This document shows, one piece after another, positions 606 to 10,365 of a stretch of 10,365 nucleotides of DNA (within the stretch, counting starts at the first letter, position 1; each line of letters starts with the position of its first letter). Source of the DNA: Mycobacterium sp. Its GTDB lineage: Bacteria > Actinomycetota > Actinomycetes > Mycobacteriales > Mycobacteriaceae. A program made the translations under genes and the position numbers. A model generated the notes under the pieces. The model searched no databases, was not told the DNA's origin, and saw only the letters and a program-made list of their open reading frames with translations. The stretch spans positions 1-10,365 of the forward strand of contig JAHFVB010000125.1 of assembly GCA_023264755.1 (NCBI GenBank). The letters are read 5' to 3'.

Positions 606-1196
606 TCAGGCTCCCAGGTCGGGGGATTTGAGGCCGGCCGCGTGGCGGAGCTGGGCCAGGAACTGGTCGCCGTCGTCGCTGCGCACGATGTAGTGCGCAA
701 TGGCCACCCGGACCACGGTGGCCGCCTTGACCGCGCTGTTGGGACCGGACATCAACTTCACCACGCGGGCGCGCATGAGCGGCATGATCTTGTCCAGTTG
801 CGCGATGACGACTTCGGGCTCGATGTCGACCAGCCGGACTCCGGAATACGACTGCTGGTATTGGACGATGAACTGCAGTGCGGCGTCCAGCTTGTCGTTG
901 CCGCGGAGCCCGGCGGTCGCTCTGCTGATGCCCGAGTCGAACATGTTGCGCTCGTAGAGCCCGAAGGCAGCGAGCAGCTCGTCCTTGGAGGCGAACCACC
1001 GGTACAGCGTCGGCCGGGATACCCCGGCTTGTAAGGCGACCTCGGAAAGGCTGAGCTTGGTCTGGCCACTATGGCCGAGCACCTCGGCGGTGGCGGCGAG
1101 GATCCGAGTCCGGGTCGACGTGTCTTCGTGAGAACCGCTGCCGTCCGACAATGCGTGTGGTTCGTTCACCTCAACACCTTCGTCATGTTCGGCCAT
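606..1196 (-). CDS. TetR-family transcriptional regulator
   Basis: A 196-residue protein of normal TetR length. An N-terminal helix-turn-helix domain spans about residues 28-75; its recognition segment, LSLSEVALQAGVSRPTLYRW (48-67), carries the family's typical TLYRWF...KDEL continuation. The rest is the variable, mostly helical ligand-binding and dimer domain. It is transcribed divergently from the CoA-transferase gene across a 195-base intergenic region that holds one copy of the repeated TTACAAA-N8-CAARTGTMAS element, so it is the best candidate for the local repressor, with an acyl-CoA or pathway intermediate as inducer. This role is inferred from position. The start is uncertain: ATG at 1196 has no good ribosome-binding site, while an in-frame GTG at 1169 (residue 10) is preceded by GAAGGTG. 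The first 25 residues are acidic and poorly conserved in appearance, so either start is possible. Confidence 0.9.
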   Translation of the reverse strand: MAEHDEGVEVNEPHALSDGSGSHEDTSTRTRILAATAEVLGHSGQTKLSLSEVALQAGVSRPTLYRWFASKDELLAAFGLYERNMFDSGISRATAGLRGNDKLDAALQFIVQYQQSYSGVRLVDIEPEVVIAQLDKIMPLMRARVVKLMSGPNSAVKAATVVRVAIAHYIVRSDDGDQFLAQLRHAAGLKSPDLGA

Positions 1197-1304: not shown

Positions 1305-1333
1305 CTTACAAAGTGACGGCCAAATGTAAGGTG
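1305..1333. promoter_or_regulatory. Putative TetR operator, copy 1 (tetR / CoA-transferase intergenic)
   Basis: CTTACA (1305-1310) and TGTAAG (1325-1330) form a perfect 6-bp inverted repeat with a 14-base spacer. The 29-bp segment matches copies 2 and 3 at fixed spacing (TTACAAA-N8-CAARTGTMAS) and agrees with copy 2 at 17 of 29 positions. It ends 58 bases before the CoA-transferase ATG and lies 108 bases upstream of the tetR start, so it could control both directions. The assignment to the TetR protein is inferred from position and symmetry. Confidence 0.6.
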
Positions 1334-1379
1334 CTTTGGCGGAACCGACGGCGGCCTCGGGCCTGGGCGATTCGGACAG

Positions 1380-1387
1380 AAGGGGGG
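1380..1387 (+). promoter_or_regulatory. Ribosome-binding site of the CoA-transferase gene
   Basis: AAGGGGGG sits 4 bases before the ATG at 1392. It supports that start, which also gives the family's usual N-terminus (PLEGLTVVELG). Confidence 0.6.
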
Positions 1388-1391
1388 CGGC

Positions 1392-2579
1392 ATGGCCGGA
1401 CCGTTGGAGGGCCTCACCGTGGTCGAACTGGGAGTATGGGTAGCCGGTCCCGCGGCGGCCGGGATTCTCGCCGACTGGGGTGCCGATGTCGTGAAGATCG
1501 AACCGCCGACCGGAGATCCGGCGCGGGCGTTCGGCCGGATGTTGGGCCTACCCCAGGACGGTCACACCGCCAACCCACCGTTCGAACTGGACAACCGGTC
1601 CAAGCGCAGCGTCGTACTCGACCTGGCCGGCGCAGCGGATCATGCTTGCGCCCTCGAGCTGATCGCCGAGGCCGACGTCTTCGTCACCAACGTGCGGCCC
1701 GCGGCGCTGCAACGGCTCGGTTTGCACTACGAAGCCCTGGCCGTGCGAAATCCACGCCTGGTGTACGGATTGATCACCGGCTACGGAATGACCGGGCCCG
1801 ACGCGGACCGGGCGGCCTACGACGTGGCGGCCTTCTGGGCCCGAGCGGGGTTGGCGCATCTACTGACTAGGCCCGGCGATACGCCTCCGTTCCAGCGCGG
1901 TGGCATGGGAGACCACTCGGTGGGCATGACGTTGGCCGCAGCGGTGTGTGCGGCGTTGGTGGCCCGGGCCCGCACCGGGACTGGCCAACTGGTGACGACC
2001 TCGCTGTACCGCCAGGGGACGTACACCGTGGGCTTCGACCTCAATACCTTCTTGCTCACCGGCAATCCCATCGCGATCGGGCGGCGCGAGACGATGGGCA
2101 ACCCCTGCATGAACAACTATGCGGCCGGCGATGGGCGCCGGTTCTGGATCGTCGGACTGCAGGGCGAGCGACACTGGCCCGCCCTGTGCCGGGTGGTGGG
2201 ACGCGAGGATTGGCTGACCGACCCGCGGTATGGCACCGCCCGCGACCGCTTCGTCAACGGTGAACGGTTGATCGGCGAGTTGGACGAGCTCTTCGCGCGT
2301 AAGCCGCTGGCCGAATGGGCCGAGCTCTTTGCCGGCGAGCCGGACTTCTTCTGGTCGCCGATCAACTCGCTCGAGGACATCCTCGGCGACGAACAGTTCC
2401 ACGCCGGGGGTGGACTCGTCGACGTACCCGACGGCGACTCGAGCATTTCGATGGTCGCGACGCCGGCGGACTTTCACGGCACGCCGTGTCAACCGCGTTG
2501 GGCGGCCCCGGAACTCGGTGAACACACCGCCGAGGTGAGGTCGGAACTCGCCGCCAGGCGGCCGGCGCCGACGGCTTAG
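1392..2579 (+). CDS. CaiB/BaiF (class III) CoA transferase
   Basis: A 395-residue protein, the usual length for formyl-CoA-transferase-like family III enzymes, which move CoA between carboxylic acids through an aspartyl-CoA thioester. Visible family marks: N-terminal PLEGLTVVELGVWVAGP, then LADWGADVVKIEPPTGDP (residues 27-43), LDNRSKRSVVLDL (66-78), the FVTNVRP segment (97-103), and GGMGDHSVG, whose Asp174 matches the catalytic Asp (Asp169 in formyl-CoA transferase). The C-terminal part carries the typical GDGRRFWIVG and W..L motifs. It stands alone in its transcript, between the divergent tetR and the first P450, which has its own upstream element. It likely activates a pathway acid to its CoA ester using a second acyl-CoA as donor. 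The substrate cannot be read from the sequence; the family assignment is firm. Confidence 0.93.
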   Translation: MAGPLEGLTVVELGVWVAGPAAAGILADWGADVVKIEPPTGDPARAFGRMLGLPQDGHTANPPFELDNRSKRSVVLDLAGAADHACALELIAEADVFVTNVRPAALQRLGLHYEALAVRNPRLVYGLITGYGMTGPDADRAAYDVAAFWARAGLAHLLTRPGDTPPFQRGGMGDHSVGMTLAAAVCAALVARARTGTGQLVTTSLYRQGTYTVGFDLNTFLLTGNPIAIGRRETMGNPCMNNYAAGDGRRFWIVGLQGERHWPALCRVVGREDWLTDPRYGTARDRFVNGERLIGELDELFARKPLAEWAELFAGEPDFFWSPINSLEDILGDEQFHAGGGLVDVPDGDSSISMVATPADFHGTPCQPRWAAPELGEHTAEVRSELAARRPAPTA

Positions 2580-2638
2580 CCCGCCATGGGCTCACGGGTC
2601 CGGCGGCGCTCGGCGGTGGCGTGCGCCGTATTGCAGTG

Positions 2639-2667
2639 TTTACAAATTACTCTCCAAGTGTCACGCT
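2639..2667. promoter_or_regulatory. Putative TetR operator, copy 2 (upstream of first P450)
   Basis: TTTACA (2639-2644) and TGTCAC (2659-2664) form an imperfect inverted pair with the same 14-base spacer as copy 1. The 29-bp segment is identical to copy 3 at 25 of 29 positions. It ends 58 bases before the GTG start of the P450, the same distance as copy 1 from its gene. It shows that this P450 gene probably has its own promoter although it follows the CoA-transferase gene on the same strand. No clean -10/-35 pair is visible here. Confidence 0.62.
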
Positions 2668-2710
2668 GAATCGGTCGGTAACCGTATCGCGGGGCCGTCC
2701 GCCGGGGCAT

Positions 2711-2720
2711 GGAAGAGGAA
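2711..2720 (+). promoter_or_regulatory. Ribosome-binding site that fixes the first P450 start
   Basis: GGAAGAGGAA lies 5 bases before the GTG at 2726. It favours that start over an in-frame GTG at 2621, which would add 35 residues and place the repeated operator element inside the coding region. Confidence 0.7.
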
Positions 2721-2725
2721 GTCCA

Positions 2726-3982
2726 GTGACAGTTGCCAGCGTGGCGCGGGAACACGAGTACAGCCCATTCGACATTACGTCGCAAGCCTTCTGGAGCCAG
2801 ACGTTCGACGAGCGTGACCAGACGTTCGCGCGCCTGCGCGCGGGCGACGGGCTCACCTGGCACCGGCCACTGCCCTCGCTGTTCGACGTCACCGAACCGG
2901 GCTTCTGGGCGTTGACCCGACGGGCCGACATCGCCTTCGTCAGCACGCATCCGGAGTTGTTCACCTCGGCGCAGGGCGTGGCCCTGGATCCGATGCCCGC
3001 CGAGGTGCAGCGGTTCGCCTCGTTCTTCTTGACGATGGACCCGCCGCAGCACACCAGCTACCGCAAGTTGATCAGCTCGGCCTTCACCCCGCGCAATGTC
3101 CGCCGGATCGACGAGCAGATACACGAGACCGCGGTCGCGATCGTCGACGACCTCGTCGGGGCGGGCGAGCTCGACTTCGTCTCGGCGTGTTCGGCGCGTC
3201 TTCCGATGGTGACCATCATGAAGATGCTCGGTGTTCCGCCCGCGGATCAACCGGCCGTGGCAGCCGCCGCGGAGAAGCTGTTCGGCATGAGCGACGACGA
3301 GTACAGCACGCTGGAGGAGCGGGCCCAGGACACGATCAACGAGCTCCTGCTGTTGGCCGGTACTGGTGCCGAGCTGGCCAAGTTTCGCCGCAGCCATCCT
3401 GGCGACGACCTGATGACCAGCATCGTCGACGCCGAGGTCGACGGCCACCGGCTGACCGACGAGGAGATCGGTGCGTTCCTGATCCTGCTGTCCTCGGCGG
3501 GCAACGACACCACCAAACAGGCCACCACGCACGCGATGATGGCCTTGGTGGCGAATCCCGACCAGCGGGCCTGGCTGATGGAGGACTTCGACGATCGAAT
3601 CGGTCCGGCCATCGAGGAGTTCGTCCGATGGTCGTCGCCGGTGCTGCAGTTCGCGCGCTTCGCCACCGAGGACACCGAAGTGGCCGGGCAACGGATCGCG
3701 GCGGGCGAGAAGGTGGGGCTCTTCTACTGCTCGGCCAATCGCGACGAGAGGGTGTTCGACTCGCCGCACGCCTTCGAACTCTCGCGTTCGCCCAATCCTC
3801 ACCTGGGCTTCGGGGGTGGCGGGCCGCACTTCTGCCTCGGGAGCCGGCTAACCAAGAGTGAACTGCGAAACTTGTTCGGAGAGTTGCTCACTCGATTGAA
3901 GCGCGTCGAATTCGGCGAACCCGACCTGCTCCGCAGCAGCTTCGTGCACGGGGTGAAGCGGCTCCCCGCCGTCATCGAGTAG
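2726..3982 (+). CDS. Cytochrome P450 (CYP124/125/142-like group)
   Basis: A 418-residue soluble bacterial P450 from the GTG at 2726. Visible motifs: helix-C segment DPPQHTSYRKL (105-115); I-helix AGNDTT (258-263) with the Asp261-Thr262 pair used in oxygen activation; the K-helix ExxR (Glu298 to Arg301 in EEFVRW); and the heme loop FGGGGPHFCLG (362-372) with Cys370 as the iron ligand. The C-terminal RSSFVHGVKRLPAV resembles mycobacterial steroid and branched-lipid P450s such as CYP124, CYP125 and CYP142; this is recalled resemblance, not a computed match. It would hydroxylate a hydrophobic substrate with electrons from a ferredoxin not encoded here. It has its own upstream element at 2639-2667 and ends 3 bases from the convergent thioesterase stop. 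P450 identity is certain; the subfamily is tentative. Confidence 0.95.
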   Translation: MTVASVAREHEYSPFDITSQAFWSQTFDERDQTFARLRAGDGLTWHRPLPSLFDVTEPGFWALTRRADIAFVSTHPELFTSAQGVALDPMPAEVQRFASFFLTMDPPQHTSYRKLISSAFTPRNVRRIDEQIHETAVAIVDDLVGAGELDFVSACSARLPMVTIMKMLGVPPADQPAVAAAAEKLFGMSDDEYSTLEERAQDTINELLLLAGTGAELAKFRRSHPGDDLMTSIVDAEVDGHRLTDEEIGAFLILLSSAGNDTTKQATTHAMMALVANPDQRAWLMEDFDDRIGPAIEEFVRWSSPVLQFARFATEDTEVAGQRIAAGEKVGLFYCSANRDERVFDSPHAFELSRSPNPHLGFGGGGPHFCLGSRLTKSELRNLFGELLTRLKRVEFGEPDLLRSSFVHGVKRLPAVIE

Positions 3983-3985
3983 CGG

Positions 3986-4801
3986 TCAGCGCGTCGGCAT
4001 CGGACGGACCAGCACCGACTGCTGGATCCCGCCTACCGGGCCGCTCTGGTCGAACAGCGTGCCGAACGTGGTGCCGATGCCATCCGGCCCGTAGCTGGTC
4101 TCGGCGCGAATGCCGATCCAGTCCCCTTCGGGCACGCGGTGCACGTGCACGACCAGATCGGTGTTCATGAACGTCCACTTCCGGATGTCCAACTTGGTGC
4201 CGAGGCCGTTGGCATCGTCGGCGACGGAGAAGAGCCGCTGGAGCGGGGTCATCGCCTCGCCCTGGACCAAGTCCACCGTCGGTTTCAGCCACGACTCGCC
4301 GGGACCGGCCGCCATCGGCGTGGTGAGCCAACGCCAGTCCACGCTGTGGACGTAGTTGCGTTCCCAGCCCTTCGCGAGCTCTCTACTCACCGCTTCGGAT
4401 AGCGGCCGCAGCGGGGCGGCCGGCTGATGCACCAGGGCGCTGGTGTCCAACACCAGCATCCGCCAGCCACTGGCCCGCGCCACGGGCCTGGGCTCGCCGT
4501 CCTTGCCGAGGGCGAGCAGTTCGGCGGTGACCAACTCGATCTGCCTGCCGGGTCGGTCCACGCGGGCGCGCACCCATAGGTCACCCTCGACGGGGACGCC
4601 ACCCAACAGGTCGACCATGACCCGGCACAGTCGGGTATCGGCTCGTGGCGCGCACCGCTCGAGGGCACGCACCAGCAGTGCCGACACGGGCGCACCGTGT
4701 TGGATGGCCGCATTCCACGTGCCGCGGACCAGCTCGGTCGCCGCGAACCTCTCGCCGCGTTCGTCGTCGCCGTCGATCAGTTCGTAATAGCAGTCGGACA
4801 C
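3986..4801 (-). CDS. TesB-like acyl-CoA thioesterase (double hotdog)
   Basis: A 271-residue protein of the length expected for two hotdog domains, as in TesB-type thioesterases, which hydrolyse acyl-CoA to acid plus CoA. The N-terminal domain covers about 1-120 (ELVRGTWN, GWRMLVLDT) and the C-terminal domain about 150-271. Candidate catalytic residues, by loose comparison with the Asp204-Thr228-Gln278 set of E. coli TesB, are Asp195 or Asp196 (SVADDANG), Thr214 (FMNTDL) and Gln260 (GGIQQSVLV). The GTG start at 4801 lies four bases after the stop of the SMP-30 gene, with GAAGG just upstream, so the two genes form a minus-strand operon. In the pathway it could release an end product or relieve CoA trapping. 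Some relatives are annotated only as thioesterase family protein, and the substrate is unknown. Confidence 0.85.
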   Translation of the reverse strand: MSDCYYELIDGDDERGERFAATELVRGTWNAAIQHGAPVSALLVRALERCAPRADTRLCRVMVDLLGGVPVEGDLWVRARVDRPGRQIELVTAELLALGKDGEPRPVARASGWRMLVLDTSALVHQPAAPLRPLSEAVSRELAKGWERNYVHSVDWRWLTTPMAAGPGESWLKPTVDLVQGEAMTPLQRLFSVADDANGLGTKLDIRKWTFMNTDLVVHVHRVPEGDWIGIRAETSYGPDGIGTTFGTLFDQSGPVGGIQQSVLVRPMPTR

Positions 4802-4805
4802 TAGG

Positions 4806-5669
4806 TCACCTTCGTCCTCGAGCAGCGGGCGCCGTGCCCGACGCGGCCACTGGGACGTCGACGACCACCGCGTCGACCCGGGACGACTTGGTGCCCAGCA
4901 GCCGCTCTGGGTACGCGTCGGTGCTCGACACCAGGAACAACATCCTGCCTTCGGGCCCGCCGAGTGCGCACGCTATCGCCATCCGGTCGCCGACGTCGAT
5001 GCGGTCGGTCACGAGGCCGCCGGGCAGGATCCGCTGAAACTGATGAGCCAACGTCATCGCCACCCAGACGCCACCCTCGACGTCGATGGCCAGACCATCG
5101 GGCGGCCCTTCGAGCCCCTCGGCGAACGGCCGCCGATCAGTCAGCTCGCCGGCCGCCCCGATCGTGAACGCGGTCAGCCTGCGTCCCGTCGACTCGGCGA
5201 CGATCAGGGTTCCCCCATCGGCAGTGATGACCATGCCGTTGGGAAAGTCCAAGTCGTCCGCCACGACCGTGACGGGGGCCTCGGCGTCCTCGGGGTCAAT
5301 TCGCACGATGACGCCGCCCGTGCGGGCCTGGGATCCGACGTAGGCCCGCCCGGCCTCGTCCACCACCATGTCCCCGAGCTTGGCCGGAACCACCGAGGCG
5401 AGTTCGGCGACGGCGGCGACGGCGTCGCCGTCATAGCGCAGCACCTGGCGGTCTTCGGTCGAGACGATCAGCAGTGAACCGTCGGGGCGGAAGCCCAGTC
5501 CGGACGGCGCGCGGCCGGGCAATGCCAGCGTCGTCATCGACCCGCTGAGGTCGACGGTGTGAACGGCCTCGCCCAGCATGTCGGAGAACCACAGCAGACC
5601 CTCGAACCAGCGCGGCCCCTCACCGAAGCAGAACCCGTTGGCCAGCGGGGCGGGTGCTTTACAAATCAC
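4806..5669 (-). CDS. SMP-30/gluconolactonase/LRE-family hydrolase
   Basis: A 287-residue six-bladed beta-propeller of the SMP-30/gluconolactonase family, metal-dependent enzymes that mostly open lactones. Metal ligands are visible in the expected order: Glu17 (FGEGPRW), Asn144 (DFPNGM) and Asp191 (PPDGLAID). The blades show repeated strand patterns such as GSLLIVS, GRAYVGS and GTLIVAES. No signal peptide is seen, so it is cytoplasmic. I chose the GTG at 5669, which places GEGPRW about 15 residues from the N-terminus as is usual. A TTG at 5705 would add 12 residues encoded by the operator-like element. The gene is first in a minus-strand operon with the thioesterase and divergent from the second P450. 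Beside a Baeyer-Villiger monooxygenase, a lactonase role is a natural inference. The family is firm; the start is moderately sure. Confidence 0.88.
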   Translation of the reverse strand: MICKAPAPLANGFCFGEGPRWFEGLLWFSDMLGEAVHTVDLSGSMTTLALPGRAPSGLGFRPDGSLLIVSTEDRQVLRYDGDAVAAVAELASVVPAKLGDMVVDEAGRAYVGSQARTGGVIVRIDPEDAEAPVTVVADDLDFPNGMVITADGGTLIVAESTGRRLTAFTIGAAGELTDRRPFAEGLEGPPDGLAIDVEGGVWVAMTLAHQFQRILPGGLVTDRIDVGDRMAIACALGGPEGRMLFLVSSTDAYPERLLGTKSSRVDAVVVDVPVAASGTAPAARGRR

Positions 5670-5686
5670 GCGGCAAGTGTCACGCT
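5658..5686. promoter_or_regulatory. Putative TetR operator, copy 3 (SMP-30 / second P450 divergent region)
   Basis: TTTACA (5658-5663) and TGTCAC (5678-5683) have the same 14-base spacing as the other two copies, and 25 of 29 bases equal copy 2. It lies between divergent operons, 66 bases before the second P450 ATG, and overlaps the GTG start chosen for the SMP-30 gene. A regulator bound here could block both transcripts. The role is inferred from repetition, symmetry and position. Confidence 0.62.
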
Positions 5687-5705
5687 CGCTGGGTGTCGGT
5701 GTCAA
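5670..5705 (-). promoter_or_regulatory. Possible leaderless promoter of the SMP-30 operon
   Basis: On the minus strand, TTGACA (5705-5700) is followed after 18 bases by GACACT (5681-5676), which keeps two of the three key bases of a TANNNT -10. The GTG start at 5669 comes 6 bases later, the spacing expected if transcription starts at or near the start codon. Leaderless genes are common in mycobacteria. No Shine-Dalgarno sequence is visible before the GTG. The -10 match is weak, so this is tentative. Confidence 0.3.
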
Positions 5706-5752
5706 CTGCCCCTTGGGTGCGCGGGACCGTGTCGGAAAGGCAGTGAGCGGTC

Positions 5753-7000
5753 ATGGGCACCCATCTGGAAGCGGCTGTCGGCCAGGACTTCGCCTACGAT
5801 CCCTTCGCCCCGGAAGTGATGGCCGATCCTCACCCGTACTACCGGGTGCTACGCGACGAGCATCCCGTGTACTACCTGCCCACGTGGGACACCTATGCGC
5901 TGTCGCGGTTCGAGGACGTCTGGAACGTGCTGGCCATCAACGACGGGACCTTCGTCGCATCCGAGGGCACGCTGCCGGCCGCCTCGCTGCTGGCGCACCA
6001 CAACGAGGGACCGGTGCCCGATCCGGCATTTCACCCCATGCCGTTTCACGCCAACTTCGATTCGCCCATCTACGAAGGCGTGCGGCGTTCCCATTCCGGA
6101 CCGTTGCGGCCCAAGAGCGTTGCAAGATTGGTCGAACGCGTACGTGAACTCGCCAACGAGCGCCTGGACGTCCTGTTGCCGCGCGGCGTCTTCGACCTCA
6201 CCACGGACTACGGCGGAATGGTTTCGGCCTCGGTGGTGTGCGAACTGGTGGGACTGCCCGTGGAGTTGGCGGCCGACGTGCTGTGCGCCGTGAACGCAGG
6301 CAGTCTGGCCAAGCCGGGCGACGGTGTCGACACCGCGAACGCGCGGCCCGGCTTCCTGGACTACCTGGTCCCGGTCGTGGCGCGCCGGCGGGCCGCCTCC
6401 ACAAGAGGAGAACTGCCCATCGTGGACGGTCTGCTCGGCTACCGACTGCCCGATGGCTCCGAGCTCAGCGATGTCGAGGTCGCCACCCAGATGCTTGGGG
6501 TGTTCATCGGGGGGACCGAAACCGTGCCGAAGATCGTGGCCCACGGGCTGTGGGAGCTCAGCCGCAGCCGCGACCAATTGGCCGCGGTCCGCGCCGACCT
6601 GGAGGCCAACGTGGCCGTCGCGCGCGAAGAGCTGATTCGCTACTGCGCACCGGCGCAATGGTTCGCCCGAACATTGCGCAGGCCCTTCACCATTCACGAC
6701 ACCACCATGAAGCCGGGCCAACGCGTGATCACGCTGCTCGGCTCGGCGGCCCGCGACGAGCGGGAGTACCCCGATCCCGACGAATTCATCTGGAACCGCC
6801 CGATCCAGCGACTCCTGGCGTTCGGCCGTGGTCAGCACTTCTGTCTGGGGGTGCATCTCGCCCGGCTCGAAGTGACCGTCATGGTCACCGAGTGGCTCAA
6901 GCGGGTGCCCGACTTCCACGTCGTCGAGCAGTCGGCTCACCGACCGCCGTCGAGCTTTCAGTGGGGTTGGAGCAGTGTTCCCGTCGTGGTGGAGGTGTGA
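5753..7000 (+). CDS. Cytochrome P450, first gene of the oxidative operon
   Basis: A 415-residue soluble P450. Visible motifs: I-helix GGTET (253-257) with the Glu256-Thr257 acid-alcohol pair; ExxR as Glu293 to Arg296 (EELIRY); and the heme loop FGRGQHFCLG (357-366) with Cys364 binding iron. The helix-C region reads NFDSPIYEGVRRSHSGPL rather than the common DPPEHTRLRR form, so it belongs to a different subfamily from the P450 at 2726-3982. It opens a plus-strand operon: its stop is two bases before the dehydrogenase ATG, and the next junctions overlap. The ATG at 5753 is preceded by GGAAAGG and GAGCGG. A likely role is hydroxylation of the ring or side chain whose alcohol the downstream dehydrogenases oxidise. 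P450 identity is certain; subfamily and substrate are unknown. Confidence 0.95.
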   Translation: MGTHLEAAVGQDFAYDPFAPEVMADPHPYYRVLRDEHPVYYLPTWDTYALSRFEDVWNVLAINDGTFVASEGTLPAASLLAHHNEGPVPDPAFHPMPFHANFDSPIYEGVRRSHSGPLRPKSVARLVERVRELANERLDVLLPRGVFDLTTDYGGMVSASVVCELVGLPVELAADVLCAVNAGSLAKPGDGVDTANARPGFLDYLVPVVARRRAASTRGELPIVDGLLGYRLPDGSELSDVEVATQMLGVFIGGTETVPKIVAHGLWELSRSRDQLAAVRADLEANVAVAREELIRYCAPAQWFARTLRRPFTIHDTTMKPGQRVITLLGSAARDEREYPDPDEFIWNRPIQRLLAFGRGQHFCLGVHLARLEVTVMVTEWLKRVPDFHVVEQSAHRPPSSFQWGWSSVPVVVEV

Positions 7001-7002
7001 GC

Positions 7003-7971
7003 ATGTGGGCTCATCGGCTGACGGCGCCCTACACCTTCGAGCGGACGCAGATTCCCGAACCCACTGCGGAAGCCCTCACCGAAGGTCACGTGCTGCTTCG
7101 CTTTCTGGCGGCGGGGATCTGCGGTAGCGACCTGCCCGCGTTCCGCGGAGCGCAGGGCAAGCTACCCGGTGACACCGGGCTCAGCGCCGCCGAGCTCAAC
7201 GGGTTTCCAGCCCACGAGATCGTCGGCGAGGTACTCGCCAGCCGACATCCCGCCCATCGACCGGGCGACCGGGTCGTCGGCTGGGCGTCCGGATTCGATG
7301 CACTGATGGCGCTGGTGGTCGCCGACGGTGACGGGCTGGCCTCGTATGACGCCGCGCTGACCCCGGCCCAGGCGGTCGGTTTGCAACCGTTGGCCTGCGT
7401 GCTCTACGCGACCGAACAACTTCCCGACCTGACCGGGCGGCACGTGGCCGTCGTCGGACAGGGTTCGATCGGATTGCTGTTCTCGTATGTCGCCAAGGCC
7501 GCCGGCGCCGCCCAGGTCACCGGTGTCGATCCCGTCGACCGTTCGGTCGTCGGACCGGCGTTCGGAGTCGACACCGTGGTGCGGGCCACCAGCGATCGCT
7601 GGATCCGGCAGCTCGAGCCCGAGCACAAGCCCGACGTCGTCATCGAAGCCGTCGGCCATCAGGTGGCGACGTTGGGCCACGCCATCGAGGCGGCAGCCTT
7701 CGGTGGCACCGTCTTCTACTTCGGGGTCGCCGACGACGACACGTACCCGATCAGCATCCGGACCATGCTGCGCCAGAACCTGACGTTGAAATCCGGTGTG
7801 ACGCTTGAGCGGCGGCGAGTATTGCACAAGGCCGACGCCTTCGCCCGCGCACATCCCGACCTGTTGCCCAACTACCTCACCCACACGTTCGGGGTCGAGG
7901 ACGTGCAGTCGGCCTTCGAGCTGGCCTGCCGCCCGGTGGCGGAGCGGGTCAAGATTGCGGTGGCGGTATGA
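7003..7971 (+). CDS. Medium-chain (zinc-type) alcohol dehydrogenase-like protein
   Basis: A 322-residue MDR-superfamily oxidoreductase, slightly short because the structural-zinc loop with four cysteines is missing. The N-terminal catalytic domain shows GICGSD (Cys40) and PAHEIVGEV (His71, Glu72), usual catalytic-zinc ligands. At the position where sorbitol-dehydrogenase-like enzymes carry Glu before PL(A/S), this protein has Gln128 (LQPLACVL). The Rossmann fold has GQGSIG (152-157), and Asp176 at the end of the second strand suggests NAD rather than NADP. It would oxidise an alcohol, probably one made by the P450s, or reduce a carbonyl. The ATG at 7003 follows GGAGGTG closely. It starts two bases after the P450 stop and overlaps the aldolase by ATGA, so it is translated within the operon. 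The family is firm; the substrate is unknown. Confidence 0.9.
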   Translation: MWAHRLTAPYTFERTQIPEPTAEALTEGHVLLRFLAAGICGSDLPAFRGAQGKLPGDTGLSAAELNGFPAHEIVGEVLASRHPAHRPGDRVVGWASGFDALMALVVADGDGLASYDAALTPAQAVGLQPLACVLYATEQLPDLTGRHVAVVGQGSIGLLFSYVAKAAGAAQVTGVDPVDRSVVGPAFGVDTVVRATSDRWIRQLEPEHKPDVVIEAVGHQVATLGHAIEAAAFGGTVFYFGVADDDTYPISIRTMLRQNLTLKSGVTLERRRVLHKADAFARAHPDLLPNYLTHTFGVEDVQSAFELACRPVAERVKIAVAV

Positions 7972-8753
7972 CCTCCAAAATGGGGCAGGCGCTGGCGGCC
8001 CGACCGCGGGTCTTCGGCGGCTGGGTGGTCGGTCCGACGCTGATCGGACCGGAGTCGTTTGCGCAAACGGGCTACGACTACGTCGGATTCGACGCCCAGC
8101 ACGGCTATCTCGACGACGCCGACGTCGCGCTGCTGCTGAACCGGCTCGAACACGTGCCGATCGCCACCGCCGTTCGCCTACCGTCGCCGGCGCCCGCACC
8201 GATCGGCCGCGTACTCGACGCGGGGGCCGACGCGATCATCGTCGCCATGGTCGAAACTGCCCAGCAGGCCGCCGAGGCGGTCGCCGCGACACGGTTCGCC
8301 CCGCGTGGGACGCGCAGCTTCGGACCGCTGAGGGCCAGCATGGGCCTCGACGTCGGTGCGCTGGAAGCCCGCACGAGCGTCTACGCGATGGTGGAAACGG
8401 CGGCGGGCGTGACCGCCGTCGACGAGATCTGTTCTGTCGCAGGGCTGTCGGGCATCTACGTCGGCCCGGCCGATCTGGCCATTTCGATGGGACACGGGCC
8501 GACCGAGGCCTGGACCCGGCCAGACGTGCTGACGGCGATGGGCCGGTGCGTGTCCTCCGCGAACGCGGCCGGTCTGGTCGCCGGCGTACACGCCGGCGAC
8601 GGAACACTGGGCAGGACCGCCGCGAACCTGGGGTTTCGGATGATCACGCTAGCCTCGGAGGCGCAGGCGCTGCGCCATGGCGCAGCAGGCCAGCTGTCCG
8701 CCGCCAAGGCCGGAGCTGGCGAGACCGCCCAGGGCACCGGGGGATACCCATGA
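7968..8753 (+). CDS. HpcH/HpaI-family aldolase/citrate lyase-type protein
   Basis: A 261-residue TIM-barrel protein of the HpcH/HpaI family, class II metal-dependent enzymes that make or break carbon-carbon bonds next to a pyruvate-like enolate. The key residues match HpaI in order and almost in number: His45 in FDAQHG, Arg70 in TAVRLP, metal ligands Glu143 (AMVETAAG) and Asp169 (VGPADLA), and the GADAIIVAMVE stretch. The tail after about residue 240 is low-complexity and Ala/Gly-rich. The gene overlaps both neighbours by ATGA, so it is tightly coupled to the dehydrogenases. In this cluster it could cleave a hydroxy-oxo acid formed after ring opening, or act on a related acid; family members also include 2-keto-3-deoxy-sugar-acid and macrophomate-type enzymes. 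The substrate is unassigned. Confidence 0.9.
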   Translation: MTSKMGQALAARPRVFGGWVVGPTLIGPESFAQTGYDYVGFDAQHGYLDDADVALLLNRLEHVPIATAVRLPSPAPAPIGRVLDAGADAIIVAMVETAQQAAEAVAATRFAPRGTRSFGPLRASMGLDVGALEARTSVYAMVETAAGVTAVDEICSVAGLSGIYVGPADLAISMGHGPTEAWTRPDVLTAMGRCVSSANAAGLVAGVHAGDGTLGRTAANLGFRMITLASEAQALRHGAAGQLSAAKAGAGETAQGTGGYP

Positions 8754-9490
8754 GCTCCAAGACATCCCAGCGGGTGGCGCTGGTGACGGGGGCCGCGCGC
8801 GGACAAGGGGCGGCCATCGTCGCTCGGCTGCTGGCCGACGGATTCCGGGTCGGGGCCTGCGACGTCCGGAGCGACGAATTGCAGTCCACCACGTCGGCAT
8901 TGGCCAACGTCGATGCACTCGCCGTGCCCCTCGACGTCACCTCGGCCGAGCAGTGGGGGCTGGCCGTCGCCGCCGTTGTCGATCGATTCGGCTCATTGAC
9001 CACCCTGGTGAACAACGCGGGCGTGCTGCACCGGGCGGCCATCGCCGACGAGACCCCCGAGGGCTTCGAACGCAGTTGGCGGGTGAATTGCCTGGGCCCC
9101 TTCCTCGGGATCCAGGCCGTGCTCCCGCAGCTGCGGGAGGCCGACGGTGCATCGATCGTCAACACCTGCAGCACGGGCGCGCTCCGGCCGTTCCCCAACC
9201 ATTCCGCCTACGGCTCGTCGAAATGGGCGTTGCGCGGGCTGACCCAGCTCGCGGCGGCCGAACTGGCGCCCTCGGGCATCAGGGTGAACGCGGTCCTTCC
9301 TGGTCCTGTCGAAACGCCGATGCTCGCCCCCGACGTCCAGCGCCGGCTCGCGGAGACCGCGACCAGCGGCCGACTCGGCAAGCCGATGGAGATCGCCGAC
9401 GCAGTTGCATTCCTGGTGTCCGAGCACGCGTCGTTCGTCACCGGCGCGGAGCTGGTGGTCGACGGCGGCCAATCGCTTCGGATCGGATGA
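8750..9490 (+). CDS. Short-chain dehydrogenase/reductase (SDR)
   Basis: A 246-residue classical SDR. Visible motifs: cofactor loop TGAARGQG (13-20); Asp38 at the end of the second strand, which favours NAD(H); DV at 62-63; NNAG (88-91); and the catalytic set Asn113, Ser141, Tyr154 and Lys158 (YGSSK). PGPVETPM (184-191) follows, and the C-terminal VTGAELVVDGG is typical of FabG-like and hydroxysteroid-dehydrogenase-like members. It would interconvert a secondary alcohol and a ketone. Lying directly before a Baeyer-Villiger-type monooxygenase and overlapping it by ATGA, it is a good candidate to supply that enzyme's ketone substrate. GGGGGA at 8739-8744 is the ribosome-binding site, five bases before the ATG, which overlaps the aldolase stop. 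The family is certain; the exact substrate is not. Confidence 0.94.
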   Translation: MSSKTSQRVALVTGAARGQGAAIVARLLADGFRVGACDVRSDELQSTTSALANVDALAVPLDVTSAEQWGLAVAAVVDRFGSLTTLVNNAGVLHRAAIADETPEGFERSWRVNCLGPFLGIQAVLPQLREADGASIVNTCSTGALRPFPNHSAYGSSKWALRGLTQLAAAELAPSGIRVNAVLPGPVETPMLAPDVQRRLAETATSGRLGKPMEIADAVAFLVSEHASFVTGAELVVDGGQSLRIG

Positions 9491-10365
9491 GCCCGATGTC
9501 GAGCGGTCCCTCCGTGGGCATCATCGGAGCCGGCCCCGGTGGCTTGGCCTTGGGCATCTTCCTGCGCAAGGCGGGTTTTCGCGACTTCACCATCTTCGAC
9601 CGCGAGGACGGGGTCGGCGGAACGTGGCGGATCAACAGCTACCCAGGGTTGGCCTGCGACGTGAAGTCGCACCTGTATTCGTTCTCGTTCGACAAGAACG
9701 CCAACTGGTCACGACTGTGGTCGGGGCAGCCCGAGCTCCTGGCCTACTTCGAACGCTGCGCACAGCGGTATGGCCTCGGCCCGCACCTGGCGCTCGACAC
9801 CGAGGTCGTATCGGCACACTGGGACGCGGATTCGCGAACGTGGCGGTTGACGACCTCGACGGGCGCCGAGCACACCTTCGACGTCGTCGTATCGGCCGTC
9901 GGCCTCTTCACTCAGCCGACGATGCCGACCCTCAGCGAGGAGCAGCCCTTCGCGGGCACGGTGCTGCACACGGCCCGCTGGGACCACACCCTGGACCTGA
10001 CCGACCGGAAGGTCGCCGTGCTAGGGACGGGATCGACTGCAGCACAGCTGGTTCCGGAGGTCGTCAAGGTCGCCGAGAAGGTCTACTCGATACAGCGGTC
10101 CCCGACGTGGATTCTGCCCAAGGCCGACCGTGCGTACACCGTGCGAGAGCAGTGGGTCTTCGGGCACGTCCCGTTCGCGAAGACGCTCTATCGCGCCCGG
10201 CTGTGGTGGCGCAGCGAATCCAACATCGCGGTGATCGAACACGGCAGCGACAAGACGGCCGAGTTCCGCGCGACGGCCGCCGCGATGCTCGAGCAGGCCG
10301 TCGCCGACCCGGCCCTTCGCAATCGACTCACCCCCGAAACCCCGCTTGGCTGCAAGCGATTGGTG
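9487..10365 (+). CDS. Flavin-dependent monooxygenase, Baeyer-Villiger type, 5' part
   Basis: The first 293 codons of an FAD- and NADPH-dependent monooxygenase, open to the window edge; the family is usually about 480-550 residues, so roughly the C-terminal 40% is missing. Visible motifs: FAD-binding GAGPGG (14-19); GGTWRINSYPGLACDVKSHL (44-63), typical of the class; the Baeyer-Villiger fingerprint FxGxxxHxxxWD (Phe155, Gly157, His161, Trp165, Asp166); the second dinucleotide motif GTGSTA (180-185); and IQRSPTWILPKAD (202-214). Such enzymes insert oxygen beside a ketone, giving an ester or lactone. The ATG at 9487 overlaps the SDR stop (ATGA); an ATG at 9496 is an alternative start. A ketone from the SDR as substrate and the SMP-30 protein as lactonase would fit, but this is inferred. 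Confidence 0.93.
   Translation, partial: MSPMSSGPSVGIIGAGPGGLALGIFLRKAGFRDFTIFDREDGVGGTWRINSYPGLACDVKSHLYSFSFDKNANWSRLWSGQPELLAYFERCAQRYGLGPHLALDTEVVSAHWDADSRTWRLTTSTGAEHTFDVVVSAVGLFTQPTMPTLSEEQPFAGTVLHTARWDHTLDLTDRKVAVLGTGSTAAQLVPEVVKVAEKVYSIQRSPTWILPKADRAYTVREQWVFGHVPFAKTLYRARLWWRSESNIAVIEHGSDKTAEFRATAAAMLEQAVADPALRNRLTPETPLGCKRLV

Follow-up and report, generated by a model that had tools for sequence, protein, structure and literature searches.

The window analysed here is an entire contig of 10,365 bp (JAHFVB010000125.1) from a Mycobacterium sp. draft genome (4.75 Mb in 636 contigs, 70% complete). Beside a divergent gene for a TetR-family regulator (tetR) it carries a cluster that includes a CaiB-type coenzyme A (CoA)-transferase, two cytochromes P450 (P450-A and P450-B) and an SMP-30/gluconolactonase-like gene, and a dyad element recurs in the promoter gaps of this cluster. 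We propose, with a probability of roughly 0.86, that the element serves as operator for the adjacent TetR and marks the promoters of its regulon. On the best reading, the TetR is a repressor that controls an oxidative, CoA-linked catabolic regulon and also its own expression. The sites, their conservation, their division into two classes, their proximity to called start codons and their co-occurrence with the TetR are observed directly; from the sequences we infer binding, repression, a ligand and a substrate. This assigns to an oxidative catabolic cluster both a candidate regulator and a specific operator; of the 148 genus genomes sampled, 123 encode the regulator (match at E ≤ 1e-25).

Copies of the element in the window

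The pattern TTACAAA-N8-CAARTGTMAS, put forward in a sequence-only reading of the window, occurs exactly at 1306–1330, 2640–2664 and 5659–5683, with no further match in the window at up to 3 mismatches. Copy 1 (1302–1333, no strand assigned) is located between the divergent tetR and CaiB genes, 109 bp and 62 bp from them by arithmetic. Copy 2 (2636–2667, forward strand; TTTACA…TGTCACGCT) lies upstream of P450-A, 62 bp from its GTG at 2726, and copy 3 (5655–5686, forward strand) lies between the divergent SMP-30 and P450-B genes, 70 bp from the latter. By inspection, only these three gaps can hold cluster promoters, and each has one copy. Outside the site, the gaps share no same-strand 9-base word, 9 being the longest word tested, in line with the initial description of one element per promoter region in otherwise unalike DNA.

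Over the 29-mers originally delimited, copies 2 and 3 agree at 25/29 positions and copies 1 and 2 at 17/29, as first counted; copies 1 and 3 agree at 16/29. The perfect 6-bp inverted repeat reported for copy 1, CTTACA…TGTAAG, is present. What sets copy 1 apart from the other two is its membership of a distinct, symmetric class of site. None of 200 shuffles attained three pattern matches, a post hoc figure, as the copies themselves supplied the pattern; independent evidence for the element comes from its conservation.

Conservation and two classes of site

Twenty-eight loci from Mycobacterium and Mycolicibacterium records encode a close relative of the window TetR. In 27 of them, TTACA-N14-TGTMA occurs at two to four sites per locus, at orthologous promoters; L032 has no such site. 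Together with the window the loci contain 98 sites, all of them in promoter gaps if six sites inside over-extended P450A calls are counted in the gap upstream of P450A; these six calls, which swallow a divergent gene, are artefacts of the gene caller. A lack of conservation beside orthologous genes had been named at the outset as grounds for dropping the proposal; the site is strongly conserved there, and we regard it as a conserved operator. Chance or dispersed repeats might be suspected as the source of the three copies, the pattern having been defined from them, and are exceedingly improbable given this conservation and a reversed-control core found in 0 of the 148 genus genomes.

In our reading of the aligned sites, the wider element approximates AGCKTKACA-N14-TGTMAMGCT, with half-sites 20 bp apart, and two classes can be distinguished. 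Symmetric sites (TTACA/TGTAA; n = 25) occur once each in 25 of 29 loci including the window, and all 25 lie between CaiB and an operon of an APH-like gene and tetR, or at APH or tetR alone. All 73 asymmetric sites (TTACA/TGTCA) lie at other promoters: P450A, TetR-B, SMP30/F19 or P450B, aldehyde dehydrogenase (ALDH), P450C/cyclase, F32, F41 and Fdx. Of these, 23 adjoin P450A orthologues, and sites between SMP30 and F19-P450B are seen in relatives, as for copy 3. Model R1 was built from 44 of the 73 asymmetric sites, near-duplicates being dropped by eye, and model R2 from 19 of the 25 symmetric sites. Copies 2 and 3, both in the R1 training set, score 26.7 and 30.3 bits with R1; copy 1, in the training set of R2, is not listed by R1 in its own genome even at E ≤ 10.

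The asymmetric sites are strictly oriented. Their TGTCA end faces P450A (23/23), P450C (7/7) and F19 (9/9), and their TTACA end faces TetR (16/16), ALDH (21/21), SMP30 (12/12) and the cyclase (7/7). Because the sites are orthologous, this orientation may merely be inherited. It bears on whether the element could be a promoter signature of the cluster, read by a sigma factor, rather than an operator. Such a signature would fit the likeness of TTTACA to a −35 hexamer and the closeness of the element to called start codons. However, since one end faces P450 genes and the other ALDH, TetR and SMP30, the element has no single direction; it has dyad symmetry, one copy serves two divergent operons, and copies 2 and 3 show by eye no −10-like hexamer at the standard distance. 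The core is also absent from the 25 genus genomes without the TetR, and R1 sites from 178 genomes outside the genus, so that we consider a promoter signature very unlikely.

Co-occurrence of site and regulator

Across the 148 genus genomes, for which site and TetR counts were taken from per-genome tables, the exact core TTTACA-N14-TGTCACGC occurs in 114. All 114 also encode the TetR, nine genomes have the TetR only, none has the site only and 25 have neither. With R1 (E ≤ 0.05) the corresponding numbers are 117, 6, 1 and 24, the single site-only genome being G146 at E 0.038. Fisher tests give approximately 4e-21 for the exact core and 5e-21 for R1, ignoring shared ancestry. Genomes with one, two or three TetR copies (n = 70, 35 and 16) contain on average 2.2, 3.6 and 4.1 core sites, and one genome each has four and five copies; the Spearman correlation between TetR copies and sites is 0.64 over the 123 TetR-bearing genomes, not corrected for ancestry.

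Among 200 genomes drawn from the order, the site is found in 21 (E ≤ 0.02) and the TetR in 22 (1e-25), all among 22 same-genus rows. The 178 genomes outside the genus have neither at these thresholds, rows not listed being counted as outside the genus, as the lists are ordered by kinship. The independent parts of this evidence are the outside-genus search and the reversed control, which matters most because the core was defined from loci whose species partly recur in the genus set (as with L014 and G048).

Several observations weigh against the proposed operator. The core and models were drawn from loci that overlap the 148 genomes, so the counts in those genomes measure spread and are not an independent discovery; co-occurrence does not distinguish the TetR from the other genes of the cluster, and the genomes share ancestry. 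The TetR occurs without the site in six genomes by R1 or nine by the exact core. Two of the six R1 cases keep a weak candidate near the TetR: L083 has one of 22.1 before a SnoaL-epimerase pair, and L084 one of 18.5 beside its TetR, these scores being sums from our own matrix and not R1 bits. The other four have no site scoring ≥ 10 in the stretches fetched, from which most of the cluster is also missing. The exact symmetric site is absent in 4 of 29 loci (L009, L012, L026 and L032), and R2, applied to 11 genomes in which sites are weak or absent, gave one match, at E 0.27 in G053, approximately 190 bp from the TetR. Finally, half-sites 20 bp apart are wider than those of the KstR, KstR2 and BkaR palindromes.

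The candidate regulator and its paralogues

The window TetR (606–1196, reverse strand) has 196 residues and a single TetR_N domain (PF00440, 9.2e-13, above cutoff). A protein search gives 1874 relatives at E ≤ 1e-30, and among the 120 listed the source names noticed are all of TetR/AcrR regulator type. Its AlphaFold model consists of helices only, with a predicted local distance difference test score (pLDDT) of 77 and a predicted template modelling score (pTM) of 0.65; FasR is the top Foldseek match, and Rv0078 and EthR2 are also matched. The TetR has a dyad-symmetric site in its own control region, copy 1 in the window, as in 25 of 29 loci overall.

Residues 56–69, the recognition helix, are 86–100% identical to the window TetR in 25 other TetR proteins, and the SRPTLYRWF region is nearly invariant in the alignment of all 26. 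Ligand domains are less uniform: identity to the window TetR is 69–83% in 13 TetR-A-type proteins, 68–69% in the second TetR of L031 and L033, and 50–57% in ten second paralogues. The nearly identical recognition helix makes it probable that one site is read by both paralogues. The sequence-only reading had named the divergent TetR as the natural binder; co-occurrence, the symmetric copies in the TetR/CaiB region and the retained helix of the paralogues favour this choice, the binding itself being predicted.

A different regulator could instead bind the site, such as another TetR paralogue or a protein from outside the cluster, with the neighbouring TetR as a passenger. Co-occurrence alone does not name the binder, 53 of the 123 TetR-bearing genomes have two to five TetRs of the subfamily and, in relatives, a second TetR adjoins the P450A or Fdx site. 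Yet the 70 genomes with one such TetR still average 2.2 asymmetric core sites, the shared recognition helix means that both paralogues may bind, and no other regulator family was recognized recurring beside sites in the locus maps, in which genes are partly annotated. We therefore judge a different binder unlikely.

A bolder idea, which we offer as speculative and rather doubtful, is that two or more TetR paralogues with the same helix and different ligand pockets share one operator set, the asymmetric operator, with its TTTACA half and GTGACA half, being read by a heterodimer or by competing paralogues. If so, a single DNA code would let one catabolic regulon combine several chemical signals. 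Operator sharing is directly testable, given the common recognition helix and different ligand domains. An obligate heterodimer is weakened by single-TetR genomes with several asymmetric sites, paralogues being counted up to E 1e-25.

Position of the sites and proposed mechanism

Measured to the starts given by a simple codon-usage gene caller, the operator ends 9 bp before APH (18/23), 10–11 bp before ALDH (18/21) and 4–10 bp before TetR (15/18). Distances are longer at P450A (36–38 bp in 8/17; range 25–160) and F19 (36–45 bp in 8/9). Because operators end a few base pairs before called starts, blocking is a natural mode of action, and the placement suggests repression of this kind. In the proposed mechanism, without inducer, TetR would sit on the site at each operon start and block transcription of CaiB/tetR, of P450-A, of SMP-30 with the thioesterase gene and of P450-B through the flavin monooxygenase gene. 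To judge from the TetR family, release would come from a compound of the pathway, which might be an acyl-CoA or an oxygenated lipid. The symmetric copy in the TetR operon/CaiB region would provide autoregulation, and the asymmetric copies would serve the remaining promoters.

The TetR might alternatively act as an activator, or as activator and repressor, at these sites. Some TetR-family proteins activate, and FasR, the top Foldseek match, is an activator in NCBIfam; that fold match is general, with many regulators matching about equally and a model of moderate confidence. Operators ending 4–11 bp before many called starts would place the bound protein over the start region, which makes activation quite unlikely and leaves blocking by a repressor as the preferred mechanism.

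In L010, the called starts of a cyclase gene and P450C are 29 bp apart (1943–1971), and the operator fills the gap. This cyclase/P450C pair occurs in seven loci, with P450C starting 2–11 bp from the operator.

The start of the window SMP-30 gene is uncertain. An in-frame GTG (5667–5669) lies inside copy 3, the open frame extends to a TTG at 5705, and no usual start codon was found just downstream of the operator (5667–5705). Because RTG occurs on the SMP30 strand of SMP30-type sites, we considered whether the operator carries the SMP30 start codon. This was rejected as a rule. Fifteen SMP30 genes lie within 120 bp of a site; in 12 of them a stop interrupts the frame at the operator, and an open frame spans the operator in just three (the window, L009 and L012). 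The genes of L031, L033 and L035 lack so close a site and are not in the count, which is of SMP30 genes with the FCFGE motif.

Comparison with known regulators

KstR and KstR2 are TetR repressors of sterol catabolism in mycobacteria (PMC1995591, PMC3068626). They share with the system proposed here autoregulation and an operator where promoters of a lipid-degradation cluster diverge. Their operators, by contrast, are 14-bp palindromes, TnnAACnnGTTnnA and AnCAAGnnCTTGnT. The window contains one KstR match with 1 mismatch, at 937–950 inside tetR (0.95 expected), and four KstR2 matches, all with 2 mismatches (1.49 expected); neither pattern falls on any of the three copies, which bears out the early remark that the site differs from both motifs. 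Similarity of the window TetR to KstR chains is confined to the DNA-binding part and its edge. BkaR, another autoregulated mycobacterial TetR with conserved operators, uses GTTA-N-T-N4-A-N-TAAC (PMC3920632), a pattern with 0 matches in the window at up to 2 mismatches.

For Rv0767c / G155_05115 of Mycobacterium sp. VKM Ac-1817D, a motif X is reported in 14 operons, 12 of which are raised more than 3-fold on phytosterol (PMC6593523). This regulator resembles the window TetR in lying near P450, ALDH and short-chain dehydrogenase genes. A CYP51-linked TetR neighbourhood in six loci (L094–L099), which from its gene order we take to be of the Rv0767c type, carries TGGACA-N2-TGTCCA in 6/6 cases between the TetR and aldehyde dehydrogenase genes. 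This palindrome is likely the operator of Rv0767c-type TetRs and presumably corresponds to motif X. It has 0 matches in the window at up to 2 mismatches. The CYP51-linked TetR matches the window-type TetR set only over 46–79 residues at 32–37% identity, and the six loci give one match ≥ 8 by our matrix (L096, 14.8). Identity of the window site with motif X was set aside, the CYP51-linked TetR having a different, compact palindrome.

The second unit of Mce3R is the best profile match of the window TetR in the PDB. Mce3R is likewise of TetR type; its regulon is of mce/lipid genes, and its target is nonpalindromic and longer than the window site. It is a double TetR chain with three conserved asymmetric regions of approximately 25 bp (PMC11667970). 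The window TetR differs in having one TetR_N domain in 196 residues, rather than two fused TetR units, and a single dyad site. A spacing of two helical turns between the half-sites points to a long operator of the QacR type; QacR binds a 28-bp palindrome as a tetramer (PMC4482099). The same paper tabulates motifs for Rv-named TetRs, and the site may coincide with one of these. In the literature searched, with closed-access papers outside reach, no description of this TetR or site was found; the kind of control is familiar, and this TetR switch with its site is seemingly undescribed there.

Gene content and possible substrate

The window begins with the end of what we take by eye to be an rlmN-like gene, a homologue of which is present in 25 of the 28 TetR-relative loci, followed by tetR. 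Downstream of copy 1 is the family III CoA-transferase gene (CaiB-like; 1392–2579, forward; Pfam CoA_transf_3, 4.5e-110). P450-A (2726–3982, forward) follows, its GTG start chosen manually, then on the reverse strand an acyl-CoA thioesterase-like gene (3986–4801; Pfam 4HBT_3C / 4HBT_3) that is downstream of SMP-30 (4806–5669; Pfam SGL, 7.5e-45). The forward operon after copy 3 opens with P450-B (5753–7000; Pfam p450; nearest solved relative CYP130) and continues with a zinc-type alcohol dehydrogenase (7003–7971; Pfam ADH_zinc_N), an HpcH/HpaI-type aldolase (7968–8753; Pfam PF03328), a short-chain dehydrogenase (8750–9490; Pfam adh_short_C2) and a Baeyer–Villiger-like flavin monooxygenase (9487–10365; Pfam FMO-like) cut by the contig end. 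The best NCBIfam match of the monooxygenase is PtlE (8.4e-39), far under the PtlE cutoff. In relatives, an F19 gene lies between the operator and P450-B; in the window P450-B directly follows copy 3, with no F19 gene called in 5655–5752. The F19 copy of L076 has a weak NIPSNAP match.

Among solved structures, P450-A is nearest to CYP268A2, and CYP268 has been grouped with families for steroid and hydrocarbon hydroxylation in one account (PMC6408508). Many relatives, unlike the window, have an APH-like gene before tetR, and this gene (L010:8833–9972) has a match to the ecdysteroid kinase-like family EcKL (2.2e-14). The CYP268 grouping, the EcKL match, the Baeyer–Villiger-like monooxygenase, the CoA-transferase, the thioesterase, the lactonase-like SMP-30 and mce-like genes in one island weakly point to a terpenoid- or steroid-like substrate. 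A 737-residue gene product inside the cluster of L010 (5395–7608), beta-glucosidase-like as we recognize it by eye, belongs to a family present in 17 loci and hints at a glycosylated substrate.

Predicted wider regulon

The pattern at up to 3 mismatches has eight matches in the window's own genome (three exact, one with one mismatch, three with two and one with three), against four for the reversed control. The many unrelated matches that the sequence-only reading would have held against an operator are thus not seen, and the weakest matches are not trustworthy from the pattern alone, because of the 8 to 4 ratio. R1 adds sites at C69:3945 (E 0.004) and C573:1556 (E 0.035), and the mismatch-tolerant pattern adds sites on C14, C133 and C236. 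Three of the added sites stand before homologues of genes found with or next to the site in other loci: a DUF427 protein (73–74% identity to L031, L033 and L035, where the DUF427 gene follows tetR), an F32 protein (41–43%; in the same three loci a site stands 41 bp ahead of the F32 gene) and an epimerase (69% to L083, where the SnoaL-epimerase pair follows the site). The C14 site precedes a P450, and the C236 site is probably due to chance.

The site allows the regulon to be listed in other mycobacterial genomes, including genes far from the cluster, and could so narrow the substrate. In G066, sites scored by our matrix extend across approximately 67 kb of one contig. One of them (L071:7658–7691, score 43.7) precedes what we recognize by eye as a YrbE/mce-like operon, a putative distant regulon member that suggests an importer in the regulon. 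Others in this genome precede genes that, again by eye, we take to be acyl-CoA dehydrogenase-, ligase-, thiolase- and amidohydrolase-like.

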